Shown here in pieces: positions 4,335 to 8,647 of a DNA stretch of 33,168 bases; positions within the stretch are counted from its first letter, which is position 1, and each line of letters begins with the position of its first letter. The notes beneath the pieces were generated by a model. It made no database searches and was not told the origin of the DNA. It was given only the letters and a program-made list of their open reading frames with translations. The DNA comes from Bacillota bacterium (GTDB lineage: Bacteria; Bacillota; Clostridia; DSM-8532): positions 1-33,168 of the forward strand of contig JAKIML020000076.1 in assembly GCA_022702935.2 (NCBI GenBank). Direction: 5' to 3'. The position numbers and the translations under genes are program-made.

Positions 4335-5773
4335 TTAATATACTGAGTATTCCTTTAGAAGGTCTGCTTTCACATCCCAAAGATTTTGAGAAAGATCCAC
4401 ATAGTATTTATGGGGATTTTCAAACCGCAGGATGGCATCCCACAGGGTTCCCATCTGGGCCCGGCAGTAGTCCCTGATAGCTTCAAGCCTGGGGCTTTCA
4501 TAAACACAGCGGCCCTTTTCAAAAATAGGTACCAAAAGCCTTCTGGCATAGAAATCGGTCAGGGTTTTCCGCTTCCAGGTATACTCGGGGTCAAAGATTT
4601 CCAGGGGCTTGTTCTCATCAATCTCCTCGTCAAAGAGGGTAATGAGATCGGCCAGTGCCTTATGGCTGTTCCGATCATAGAGCCGCCAAACCTGCTTAAA
4701 GCCTGGGTTGGTAATCTTGCCCACATTCTCGCTTAGCTTGATCTTGGGAATGATGCGCCCTTCCTCCTCAATGGCCGAAAGCTTATAGACCCCGCCGAAG
4801 ACGGGCTCGGATCTTGAGGTAATCAGTCTCTCGCCCACGCCGAACAAATCCACCTGAGCCCCTTGAATCAAAAGATCCCGGATAATATACTCATCCAACG
4901 CATTGGAGGCCACGATCCTGCAATCCTCAAACCCTGCCTCATCCAGCATACGCCTTGCCTCCCGGGATAAGTAGGTAATATCCCCGCTGTCGATTCGGAT
5001 ACCCTTGGGTCTGAAGCCTCTTGGGACAACCTCCTCCCTGAAGACCTTAATGGCATTGGGAACGCCTGATTTCAGGACATTATAGGTATCCACCAAAAGG
5101 GTGCACTGGTCGGGATAGGTTCTGGCATAAGCCCGGAAGGCCTCCAGCTCTGAAGGGAACATCTGTACCCAACTATGCGCCATGGTTCCCAGAGCGGGAA
5201 CCCCAAAGGCTCTATCGGCAAGGGTACAGGCTGTTCCGTTGCAGCCTGCAATATAGGCTGCCCTTGCGCCATAAACCGCCCCATCATAGCCCTGGGCCCT
5301 TCTGGAGCCAAACTCCATCACTGCCCGGTTTTGGGCCGCCCGTACAATGCGATTAGCCTTGGTGGCTATAAGGCTCTGATGGTTGATGGTCAGAAGCACC
5401 ATGGTCTCAATAAACTGCGCCTCAATAACCGGTCCGCGCACCGTCACAATGGGCTCATTGGGAAAAATGGGGTTCCTTCGGGAATGGCCCAGACATCGCA
5501 GGTGAACTTAAAGTTCCTGACATAGTCCAGAAAATCCTCATCAAAGCCTTTGGATCTTAAGTAAGCAATGTCCTCTTCATCAAAGCGGAGGTTTTTCAAA
5601 TATTCGATAAGCTGTTCCAGGCCGGCCACAATGGCGAACCCGCCGTTATCGGGATTCTTTCTGTAAAACATATCGAAGTAGGCGATTTTGTCCTTTAAAC
5701 CGTGCTTGAAATAGCCATTGGCCATGGTTATTTCATAAAAATCGGTGAGCATGGTCAGATTCAGGTTGTTCAT
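4335..5773 (-). CDS. pncB: Nicotinate phosphoribosyltransferase (NAPRTase), reading frame interrupted
   Basis: The gene catalyses nicotinate + PRPP (+ ATP) to nicotinate mononucleotide in NAD salvage. The N-terminal part (5773 to about 5460) reads LNLTMLTDFYEITMANGYFK and ends PEGTPFFPMSPL-stop. The C-terminal part continues one frame away as NEPIVTVRGPVIEAQF and contains GTMAHSWVQMF and IDSGDITYLS, family-typical motifs. Joining the two frames gives about 480 residues, the normal length. The break lies at 5459-5465 in TTTTTCCCA (minus strand). One extra C, or a -1 ribosomal slip at T-TTC-CCA, restores the expected PFFPNEPIV. This may be a sequencing or assembly deletion, a true mutation, or programmed frameshifting. 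The start at 5773 has AAAGGA eight bases upstream; an earlier ATG overlaps that site. It is the third gene after NrtR and nicotinamidase. Confidence 0.85.
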
Positions 5774-5792
5774 AAGCGTCATCCTTTCCGGA

Positions 5793-5832: not shown

Positions 5833-6504
5833 CTAAACAATGGCCTTCACAATTTCGACACCGTTAATGCTCATATTATAAAGGGCCATGGCATGGACCA
5901 GGTCCCCCTGATGGAGCCCCAGGTCGTAGGTATCGACCGCATTGGCGGGTACAATAATCCGAGATTTGATATTCTGCTGGTTAAACCAGGTCCTTAAGGT
6001 GATGGCCAATTGCTGAATGCAAATATCGGTGCAATCTCCCGTCATGATGAAGGTATTAATGCCCGGGTTTTCCTTAAGCCATTTCTGGAAGGCTTCCTCA
6101 TGAAAGGCATTGGTGGAGTTTTTGGGAATTTGGGTATACCCTCCCGTTTCTGCTATTTCACGCACCATTGCTGCCTCGGAGGTACCGGCCACACAGTGTA
6201 CGGGATAGGACTCAAACTCAGGAGAATCATTCCCATGGGCATCGGTGAAGGCCAGACTCTTGATGCCCTTTTTATTGGCCAGCTTTAAAAGCCTGTCAAT
6301 TTCGGGGATAAGGGCTTCTACCCTGGGGCTTTGAAGGGCTCCCTCCCGGGCAAAACCGTTTATCATATCAATGATAAACAGGGCGGTGTGCGCACTGTCC
6401 AATTGGTCCAGACTGACAGTATCCAGACCTTCAAGCCAATCCCATATCCCTTCAAGAGCTTCCCCGCTTCGTTTAACAAATTCCTGCTTAGTGATGTTGA
6501 ACAT
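5833..6504 (-). CDS. pncA: Nicotinamidase (isochorismatase-like cysteine hydrolase)
   Basis: A 223-residue cytoplasmic enzyme that would hydrolyse nicotinamide to nicotinate plus ammonia, feeding the adjacent NAPRTase. Catalytic residues of the isochorismatase-like fold are visible: D46 (ALFIIDMINGF), K128 (PKNST) and C162 (DCTDICIQQL). The metal-site region includes D88, H90 (FTDAHGND) and H103 (YPVHCVAGT), matching nicotinamidases rather than isochorismatases. An N-terminal extension of about 38 residues precedes the core. The start has GGAGG eight bases upstream. It lies 15 bp after the Nudix regulator gene and 59 bp before the NAPRTase gene, consistent with one NAD-salvage operon. The context makes the substrate assignment stronger than the fold alone would. 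Confidence 0.9.
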   Translation of the reverse strand: MFNITKQEFVKRSGEALEGIWDWLEGLDTVSLDQLDSAHTALFIIDMINGFAREGALQSPRVEALIPEIDRLLKLANKKGIKSLAFTDAHGNDSPEFESYPVHCVAGTSEAAMVREIAETGGYTQIPKNSTNAFHEEAFQKWLKENPGINTFIMTGDCTDICIQQLAITLRTWFNQQNIKSRIIVPANAVDTYDLGLHQGDLVHAMALYNMSINGVEIVKAIV

Positions 6505-6519
6505 ATGATGAACCTCCTT

Positions 6520-7425
6520 TCATACACCGGAACCCGTCCATTGGGGATTGAAAATGTAGAGCCTGGAAGGCCTGTGCCCCGCATCCCTGGTATAATGGTC
6601 GGTTTCCATAACCTTGTCAGCGATTTTCCGTCTGAAGTTTGCTTTTAGCAGCTTTGTTCCTAAAATGATTTCATAAACCTGTTGAAGCTGGGTCAGTGTA
6701 AACATCTCAGGCATGAGATTAAAAGCGATATCGCTGTATTCAATCTTGTTTCTCAGGCGCTCAATGGCATAATGGATCATCAGTCCGTGATCAAAGGCAA
6801 TACCCTGGGATTCCACCAGCCTGCGCTGAATTCTGGGACTCTTCCCCTCCACCGTCTTGATGACCTCCACTGTTGCCCCAAGCTGACAGGTGCCCTGGCT
6901 GAGCTCCACCTTGATGGTTTGCTTAAGCTGATAACCATTTTCGGTGATGGTTCTGGTCTCCTCCACAAGCCTGTCGGTGACCGTAAACCACTGGGCGTCA
7001 TCGGCATCATCACTGGCATGGAGTTCAATCTTTGAGGAATCCACCAGAGCCATATAGGCAGTACTGATGACCCGCATTCTGGGATCCCGGCCCACATCGC
7101 CCCAGGTATAAAGCTGTTCCATATAGATATCCTCAATGCCCGTCTCCTCCTTCAGCTCTCTCTGGGCTGCCTCCTCCAGGCTTTCATCCATACCAATGAA
7201 CCCGCCCGGCAAGGCCCAGTGGCCTATATAGGGATGATCCCCGCGTTTGATCATAAGCACCTTGAGAACCTTTTCGGGAAGCTTGCGGTAATTCTCCTCC
7301 ATCTGATCGGCAACGGTAAAAATCAGCATATCCACTGTCACCGAAGGTTTTTCATAGCGATTGGGATCATATTGAGCCAGAAATTCCTTCTCGGTCAGAC
7401 CATTTTTATTGACTCTTTCTCCCAC
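6520..7425 (-). CDS. nrtR: Nudix-family regulator of NAD metabolism (NrtR-like) / ADP-ribose pyrophosphatase-like
   Basis: A 301-residue protein. A Nudix domain spans about residues 28-170 with an intact Nudix box at residues 75-97 ([17 protein letters not shown] then KEETGI). The C-terminal part (about 210-290) resembles the winged-helix DNA-binding domain of NrtR proteins ([20 protein letters not shown], then [13 protein letters not shown]). NrtR proteins repress NAD-biosynthesis genes and respond to ADP-ribose. Lying directly upstream of nicotinamidase and NAPRTase genes strongly supports this role. Because the Nudix box is complete, it may also hydrolyse ADP-ribose. The start is GTG, with AAAGGG nine bases upstream. 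A strong promoter and four 14-bp repeats precede it, plausibly its own operator. Confidence 0.88.
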
Positions 7426-7459: not shown

Positions 7460-7515
7460 TTTGTTATTATCTTTTTGTTATTATTATTTTGATAATATCA
7501 TTTTGTTATTATTAT
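7460..7515 (-). repeat. Four tandem 14-bp repeats at the NrtR operon promoter
   Basis: Units begin at 7460, 7474, 7488 and 7502. On the plus strand three read TTTGTTATTAT plus three bases and one reads TTTGATAATATCAT; the invariant G recurs every 14 bp (7463, 7477, 7491, 7505). The third unit creates the odd palindrome TGATAATATCA (7490-7500). The array overlaps the -10 box and start of transcription of the NrtR operon, so it is a candidate operator. Confidence 0.7.
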
Positions 7516-7542
7516 ATTAGCACTATCACTTTCCCCTGTCAA
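7514..7542 (-). promoter_or_regulatory. Promoter of the nrtR-pncA-pncB operon
   Basis: On the minus strand a perfect TTGACA -35 (7537-7542) and a TAATAT -10 (7514-7519) are separated by 17 bp, about 90 bp before the GTG start. The 14-bp repeats begin inside the -10 box. Confidence 0.7.
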
Positions 7543-7678: not shown

Positions 7679-8647
7679 ATGCCCATGATGGATATGCCCC
7701 TTAGCGAACTTAAGCAGTACAAAGGAATCAGCCCCAAGCCCCATGACTTTGACGAATACTGGGACAAGGCCTTGGCAGAATTAAAGGCTCAGCCCGATAA
7801 TGCGGAGTTTATTCCCGCCTCCTTCCAAACCCCCAACGCCGAATGCTATGACCTCTATTTTACCGGTGTCGGCGGTTCACGGATTCATGCCAAATTCTTA
7901 AAGCCAAAGAATCTGACGGGAAAGGCACCCGCCCTTCTCCAATTCCATGGCTATAGCGCAAACAGCGGTGATTGGAATGACAAGCTCAGTTATGTCAACG
8001 AAGGCTTTGTGGTCGCCGCAATGGACTGCCGCGGCCAGGGCGGTTTATCCGAAGATCTGGCCTCCGTTAAAGGCACCACCCTCAACGGAATGATTGTCCG
8101 TGGTTTGTCGGATCCTGACAATACCAAGCTCCATTATCGCAATGTTTTTCTGGACACCGCTCAGTTGGCGCGTATCGTCATGGGTCTGGACTATGTGGAT
8201 GAGACCCGGGTGGGCGCTACCGGCGGCTCCCAGGGCGGCGCTTTAACCATTGCCTGTGCCGCGCTTGTGCCCGAGCTTAACCGGGCTTCGTCCGTCTATC
8301 CTTTCCTCAGCGATTACCGCCGAGTATGGGAGATGGATATGGCCGAAAGAGCCTATCAGGAATTAAAGACCTATTTCCGCTATTTTGATCCCCTCCATGA
8401 ACGGGAGGACGAGATTTTCACCAAGCTGGGCTATATTGATATCAGCAATCTGGCCCCCAGAATTAAGGCCAAGGTCATGATGGCCATCAGCCTCATGGAT
8501 AATGTCTGCCCGCCATCCACCCAGTTTGCCTGCTTCAATCGCTTAACCTGCGAGAAGAAGTCTGTGATTTATCCCGATTACGGTCATGAGTACCTGCCTG
8601 GGTATGGAGATTTGACCCTTCAGTTCATGCTGGAGATGAAGAAATAA
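7679..8647 (+). CDS. Acetylxylan esterase / cephalosporin-C deacetylase (CE7 family)
   Basis: A 322-residue alpha/beta hydrolase of the carbohydrate esterase 7 type, which removes acetyl groups from xylo-oligosaccharides and other small acetylated compounds. The catalytic triad is visible as S184 (GGSQGG), D274 (ISLMDN) and H303 (PDYGHEYLP). The CE7-typical RGQGG motif lies at residues 118-122. The length matches the family (about 320). There is no signal peptide, so it probably acts on imported oligosaccharides. AGGAG lies eight bases upstream of the ATG. It stands alone on the plus strand, divergent from the NrtR operon and convergent with the peroxiredoxin gene, and ends in a large hairpin terminator. 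Substrate preference cannot be read from the sequence. Confidence 0.92.
   Translation: MPMMDMPLSELKQYKGISPKPHDFDEYWDKALAELKAQPDNAEFIPASFQTPNAECYDLYFTGVGGSRIHAKFLKPKNLTGKAPALLQFHGYSANSGDWNDKLSYVNEGFVVAAMDCRGQGGLSEDLASVKGTTLNGMIVRGLSDPDNTKLHYRNVFLDTAQLARIVMGLDYVDETRVGATGGSQGGALTIACAALVPELNRASSVYPFLSDYRRVWEMDMAERAYQELKTYFRYFDPLHEREDEIFTKLGYIDISNLAPRIKAKVMMAISLMDNVCPPSTQFACFNRLTCEKKSVIYPDYGHEYLPGYGDLTLQFMLEMKK

Follow-up and report, generated by a model that had tools for sequence, protein, structure and literature searches.

A phased 14-bp array on the nrtR promoter, a predicted operator of NrtR in Clostridia and Paenibacillus

NrtR-type regulators and the operon in the window

NiaR and NadQ control niacin or NAD genes, and Rodionov et al. 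2008 reportedly described NrtR motifs by taxon. For characterized members of the NrtR family, ADP-ribose is described as an antirepressor of MsNrtR and of S. sobrinus NrtR (PMC6800001, PMC12735969), but not every family member responds to ADP-ribose, as NdnR of Corynebacterium is described as responding to NAD (PMC4666351). The operators given for Mycobacterium NrtR, GTTTTCGA-N7-TCGAAAAC, and for Streptococcus NrtR, ATA-N-TTTA-N3-TAAAA-N2-ATA, are in each case a single palindrome (PMC6800001). BtAraR, which also belongs to the NrtR family, is described as dimeric, covering 25 bp and contacting GTGT half-sites, and Bacteroides AraR as having two 21-bp sites 3 bp apart (PMC4666351). In titles and the beginnings of abstracts on NrtR in Paenibacillus, Clostridium and Firmicutes, we found no description of the motif reported below; the 2008 NrtR paper and RegPrecise lie outside that search, and an earlier report is possible.

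The locus described here lies in a window of 33,168 nt, by which we mean the whole stretch of DNA that was analysed. Its nrtR gene (6520..7425, minus strand, GTG start) is the first gene of an NAD-salvage operon and encodes a predicted repressor and autoregulator. Like SoNrtR of Shewanella, MsNrtR of Mycobacterium and Streptococcus NrtR, this protein combines a Nudix domain with a winged helix, is associated with genes of NAD salvage or synthesis and has its predicted operator near the promoter. The N-terminal Nudix domain scores 68.9 bits against PF00293 (cut-off 21.1), and the C-terminal NrtR winged-helix domain scores 74.8 bits against PF21906 (cut-off 27). Against the NCBIfam equivalog NF050029 (ADPR-responsive repressor), the score of 185 bits is below the cut-off of 400, and we therefore regard the window protein as a member of the NrtR family and not as an NF050029 equivalog. 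Unlike NadQ and NiaR, it is of the Nudix-NrtR type; NadQ (PDB 7q91) matches it only in residues 209-293, the winged-helix part.

An impaired Nudix signature is typical of the NrtR family, although not universal in it, and is not the case in the window protein, in which residues 75-97 form a full Nudix box (GX5EX7REUXEEXGU). Among 90 protein rows, with that of L018 read on the wrong strand, eight keep a full box, the window included; in a separate count, the last G of the box is replaced by N in 76 of 89. Because its Nudix box is intact, unlike that of most rows of this branch, the window NrtR might, judging from its sequence, also hydrolyse its ligand. Between the Nudix and winged-helix domains, 89 of the 90 rows keep a stretch of 52-58 residues (about residues 151-206 in the window protein). 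This stretch is missing from the aligned SoNrtR and BtAraR chains, and in the E. faecalis Nudix chain 2fml about 28 residues take its place. The recognition helix varies, with KAN in 42 and AAA in 34 of the 90 rows, whereas the DNA motif hardly changes; a tie between helix type and DNA motif, sought across these rows, amounted to small shifts only.

Downstream of nrtR, and likewise on the minus strand, are an isochorismatase-family gene predicted to encode a PncA-like nicotinamidase (5833..6504, PF00857 79.4 bits) and pncB, encoding nicotinate phosphoribosyltransferase (4335..5782, two frames, NAPRTase_N and NAPRTase_C domains), so that the genomic link to NAD metabolism holds for the window NrtR. 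In 21 of 81 loci, the window included, a PncA-like gene adjoins nrtR on the same strand, and PncB is encoded near nrtR in 23 of the 81. The two pncB frames, 5444-5782 and 4335-5447, overlap by 4 bases, and the NCBIfam model PRK09243 is split over the two pieces (positions 1-110 and 111-476). Their offset is 335 in the window, compared to a multiple of 3 in the other 22 nrtR loci with both parts; the split represents either a true frameshift or an assembly error. In 19 of the 81 loci, a PARG-like gene is positioned close downstream of nrtR on the same strand (L056, L061, L063, L066-L068 and 13 more Paenibacillus loci).

The array on the nrtR promoter and its conservation

The initial annotation had reported four repeats with exact 14-bp spacing at 7460-7515, starting within the -10 box and including one unit TGATAATATCA. 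Each of these observations was borne out: a repeat search and TRF on the 33,168-nt window recovered the 14-bp period from 7460, and the shuffles described below agree with it. To this we add the consensus of the units, TGWTANTAWCA, and the palindromy of each unit. Four near-palindromic 11-bp units span 7462-7514 at an exact period of 14 bp, each step consisting of an 11-bp unit and a 3-bp A/T linker. Read on the plus strand, the predicted operator unit 1 (7504..7514, TGTTATTATTA), which adjoins the -10 box, unit 3 (7476..7486, TGTTATTATTA) and unit 4 (7462..7472, TGTTATTATCT) each have one mismatch to the consensus, and unit 2 (7490..7500, TGATAATATCA) is a perfect palindrome with none. A possible fifth unit at 7518-7528 is much weaker, with three mismatches. 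The promoter is read from the minus strand, with a -35 box TTGACA (7537..7542), a 17-bp spacer and a -10 box TAATAT (7514..7519), the last base of which is the first base of unit 1. With its start on the -10 box and its extent across the start region, the array occupies a classical position for a repressor.

Over the four phased units there are three mismatches in total; 0 of 5000 dinucleotide shuffles made from the 260 nt upstream did as well, the best of them having 13. When we searched the 3.17-Mb genome with the two-unit pattern at up to two mismatches, the array in the window was the sole site; one more two-unit match in this genome has three mismatches.

For comparison, NrtR relatives were drawn from 61 genomes, including that of the window, and from a genome collection (the best 80 of 135 relatives); the 41 relatives aligned to the window NrtR are 56-69% identical to it. 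After removal of redundancy, 89 upstream regions, that of the window among them, were long enough to be compared; they come from Clostridia, Paenibacillus and others. An array was defined as at least two units in 14-bp phase with at most three mismatches over two units. The consensus used for counting had been derived from these nrtR promoters themselves; with it, we found an array, usually of two to three units, in 84 of the 89 regions, a number that rose from 83 when the strand of L018, which carries a four-unit array, was corrected. Shuffled upstream regions qualified as arrays in 0.22% of 1780 trials. The initial annotation had considered that absence of the repeats from all relatives would speak against its idea; this check did not refute it, the repeats being present in nearly all nrtR upstream regions. 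The five regions with no array are L016, L017, L075, L096 and L099, and those of L075 and L096 resemble coding sequence.

Among 83 arrays, 47 consist of two units, 29 of three, six of four and one of five. The distances between pairs of units, counted up to 60 bp with L018 still on the wrong strand, gave 130 pairs at 14 bp and 45 at 28 bp, and at most 17 at any other distance. L013, which has only 47 nt of upstream sequence, was left out of the promoter counts, and L017, a miss among the 89, was left out of the counts of -10 register, 14-bp neighbours and relative entropy. A perfect unit is present in 79 of the 88 promoters examined. At 14 bp from the perfect unit, the best neighbour has a mean of 1.0 mismatch, and 94% of these neighbours have no more than two (n=79); at other offsets between 11 and 45 bp, the means range from 3.4 to 6.3 mismatches.

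The register of the array relative to the promoter is similarly kept. The called -10 box and unit 1 start exactly 5 bp apart, the box first, in 51 of 83 promoters, and the same register relative to unit 2 applies in six further promoters; in 12 more, mostly from Paenibacillus, the start of the -10 box is one base before or after that of the first unit, and this unit is often weak. Over 80 arrays, the two-unit core has a relative entropy of 1.17 bits per base and each promoter box one of about 0.5, compared to 0.05 upstream and 0.12 downstream, so that constraint falls mainly on the -35 box, the -10 box and the array. In Paenibacillus ferrarius (L078), about 190 bp before nrtR are filled by five two-unit modules in 35-bp steps, some of them with weak units, and one further unit pair precedes these modules.

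Co-occurrence of the array and NrtR across genomes

Because the consensus was derived from the nrtR promoters on which it was counted, only co-occurrence and distant targets provide independent evidence. Genomes were searched with the two-unit pattern at no more than one mismatch, and the reversed pattern, used as a control, was found in 0 of 61, 1 of 40 and 5 of 391 genomes of the three samples. A genome search at three mismatches was too loose: in many genomes, the reversed control was matched about as often. The samples overlap: the class sample of 391 genomes includes some of the 61 relatives, and at least five of its genomes (G129, G180, G221, G376 and G385), judging from identical contigs and sites, seem to be in the 40-genome set as well.

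Among the 61 genomes, the array is present in 15, all of which belong to the 18 genomes with an NrtR ortholog (E 2.1e-74 or better); it is present in 0 of the 43 genomes without NrtR, and three NrtR genomes lack it. At E 1e-3, 30 of the 61 genomes gave a match, and the matches beyond those 18 are short or Nudix-only and were not counted as NrtR. One of the genomes counted as lacking NrtR, G057 (E 2.7e-16, in two pieces), may have a diverged NrtR. In G030, the site and nrtR are located at the ends of two contigs and were taken to be adjacent.

In the class sample, the array is present in 34 genomes, NrtR (E 1e-40) in 51 and both in 29. NrtR is found in 29 of the 34 array genomes compared to 22 of the 357 others (Fisher p=5.5e-25, with kinship ignored). 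Of the 29 genomes with both, 25 have a site at nrtR (G030 and G125 presumably so), G136 and G163 have the array at NAD genes other than nrtR, and G109 and G338 have it before genes without a visible NAD link and not at nrtR. The remaining array genomes gave no NrtR match at this threshold. In G386, one of four sites precedes a diverged NrtR (PF21906 62 bits) that escaped the search at E 1e-40. An open frame overlaps the site in G157, G377 and G406, and the G124 site lies before an unrelated gene. No array at one mismatch was found in 22 of the 51 NrtR genomes. Of seven of these that were inspected, five have weaker phased arrays beside nrtR (2-3 mismatches, two being nearly identical in sequence), and in the other two there is no array beside nrtR.

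A predicted NrtR operator and competing explanations

NrtR is the natural candidate regulator because it is encoded in the operon and because the array follows NrtR between genomes. On the evidence of the sequences compared here, the array is very probably the operator of the Firmicutes-branch NrtR encoded by the first gene of the operon, which would repress over the -10 box and the start site. The initial annotation had suggested that NrtR may here have an operator of several sites in place of its usual single palindrome; as a prediction, this gains support from the arrays in 84 of 89 regions, the -10 register, the co-occurrence and the NAD and ADP-ribose targets described below. NrtR on the array would block RNA polymerase at the promoter and repress nrtR, the nicotinamidase-like gene and pncB, with the four units forming three overlapping operators that extend from the -10 box across the predicted start site. 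Upon consumption of NAD, ADP-ribose would bind to the Nudix domain and NrtR would be released. The role of ADP-ribose as the releasing signal of the window NrtR is suggested here by analogy with its characterized relatives.

In contrast to the single palindromes of Mycobacterium and Streptococcus NrtR, the window contains TGWTANTAWCA repeated at 14 bp. The typical NrtR operator, a single palindrome of about 21-23 bp, is not matched by 11-bp palindromes in a 14-bp array, unless the two-unit module is counted as one such operator. BtAraR as published resembles the system predicted here in having tandem sites, a TGTTA-like half-site and a dimer that covers 25 bp, the length of the two-unit module, but differs in its arabinose regulon and in the 24-bp step of its 21-bp sites, compared to 11-bp units at 14 bp.

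On balance, we favour the 25-bp module of two units, symmetric about the linker, as the smallest working operator, longer arrays then being overlapping copies of it. The two-unit block is taken as the operator because single units are nearly absent, because two-unit blocks recur and because 25 bp is also the length covered by BtAraR. Blocks of two units recur also at other spacings, in 35-bp steps in L078 and as pairs 44 bp apart before three SPFH genes. Since the halves of such a module are palindromes in their own right, it would be extendable at 14-bp steps. With 10.5 bp to the turn, 14 bp correspond to 1.33 helical turns, and the units face three directions, repeating after 42 bp. One rigid dimer per two units is awkward because neighbouring units, 1.33 turns apart, face different sides. 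This raises the question of how a repressor with a relative such as BtAraR, the dimer of which covers 25 bp, uses sites spaced by 14 bp and one third of a turn out of phase.

The main rival within the operator reading, to which we assign a minority share, is that one NrtR dimer binds each 11-bp unit, with one subunit per TGWTA half-site, and that dimers positioned 14 bp apart and turned by ~120 degrees load cooperatively. It is the main rival because every unit is palindromic on its own and resembles the TGTTA half-site of the AraR operator, which, by our own reading of Table 2, has such half-sites in a 13-bp arrangement (PMC4666351). Arrays of three to five units, 36 of 83, are in keeping with a dimer on each unit, and the 52-58-residue inter-domain stretch found in 89 of the 90 rows could serve dimer-dimer contact. 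However, promoters with a single unit are nearly absent, discrete two-unit modules recur at the 35-bp and 44-bp spacings given above, and 25-bp footprints of the BtAraR type on adjacent units would overlap.

Explanations other than an NrtR operator were rejected. The array could belong to another regulator, for example that of the divergent acetyl-xylan-esterase-family gene (7679..8647, plus strand, AXE1 430 bits), given that the intergenic region is common to both genes. This is very unlikely: the esterase gene adjoins nrtR in only 1 of 81 loci, that of the window, whereas the array is found again at nrtR and at NAD genes of other genomes and, in the window, overlies the nrtR promoter at about 165 bp from the esterase start.

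The initial annotation also considered an A-rich leader with an effect on translation or on the stability of the mRNA; this idea found no support and appears highly improbable to us. The repeats do fall largely within the predicted 5' leader, and their sense strand is rich in A, but units are found in either orientation, the sense strand carrying TGATAATAACA or the complement TGTTATTATCA, and between 50 and 231 nt separate the start of the array from the point where the protein match begins to align. Moreover, arrays commonly start in the -10 box and are thus partly outside the transcript, and no RNA family in Rfam gave a match at E up to 1.

Finally, chance or replication slippage in A/T-rich DNA has a negligible probability although the 28-bp halves are 89% alike, so that a local duplication may have turned two units into four, because dinucleotide shuffles fail to give the array, the phase persists next to proteins that share only 56-69% identity with that of the window, and a four-unit array survives in the GC-rich upstream region of G034.

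Other targets of the array and the link to NAD

The motif was drawn without use of targets other than nrtR, and NAD and ADP-ribose form the predominant theme among these targets. In a set of 40 genomes with nrtR, the pattern is present in 36, and its 58 forward matches were merged by hand into 50 regions, with assignment to nrtR by coordinates. Of these regions, 31 are at nrtR and nine precede an SPFH/band-7 gene followed by an NAD-kinase-like gene. Three precede pnuC-nadR, in one case with a gene for a microbial-type PARG in first position, and one precedes a macrodomain-KptA pair. One each is positioned before a weakly nicotinamidase-like gene with a vWA-like gene and before a DnaJ-like gene with a vWA-like gene, and four have no NAD link. 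Band_7 was confirmed by Pfam in L177 and L246, the other SPFH pairs being recognised by similar sequence. The second protein of these pairs resembles NAD kinase weakly: NAD kinase 2 from the PDB and the NCBIfam NAD kinases match it at E of about 1e-5, under the NCBIfam cut-offs, and it has no Pfam match. Similarly, the vWA labels were assigned from sequence by eye, and the vWA-like proteins have no Pfam match. The pair of SPFH/band-7 and NAD-kinase-like genes with an array recurs in L176-L180, L182, L184, L185, L190 and L193.

In the class sample, the array precedes pncA-pncB in G387 and G245 and Nudix-pncB in G163, pncB being recognised by eye in all three. G136 has arrays before an operon of nicotinamidase, Prs-like, NAMPT-like and nadE genes and before a NadR-like gene; in G358 the array precedes a pncB gene divergent from nrtR, and in G153 an operon of nrtR, SPFH and NAD-kinase-like genes. 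One of the four arrays of G386 (L240) precedes two genes, the first for a DHH phosphoesterase and the second for a TIR-domain protein, a possible NAD-consuming pair; two of the four have no NAD link.

Tentatively, the 14-bp array may mark an NAD-depletion regulon in Clostridia and Paenibacillus, the repressor acting as an alarm for NAD consumption and array length tuning the threshold. One type of NrtR on extensible arrays would then control NAD salvage together with enzymes that make or clear ADP-ribose products (PARG, the macrodomain protein with KptA and ADP-ribose-type Nudix proteins), the band-7 protein with the NAD-kinase-like enzyme and, in single genomes, the DHH-TIR pair and vWA-like modules. 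With such a legible signature of this NrtR branch in the DNA, NAD regulons could be mapped from sequence alone in many Clostridia and Paenibacillus, and the array ties genes of unclear role, such as SPFH genes with NAD-kinase-like genes and vWA-like modules, to NAD status. In L188, L244 and L189, arrays precede small operons in which a vWA-like gene is accompanied by a weakly nicotinamidase-like, PP2C or DnaJ-like gene.
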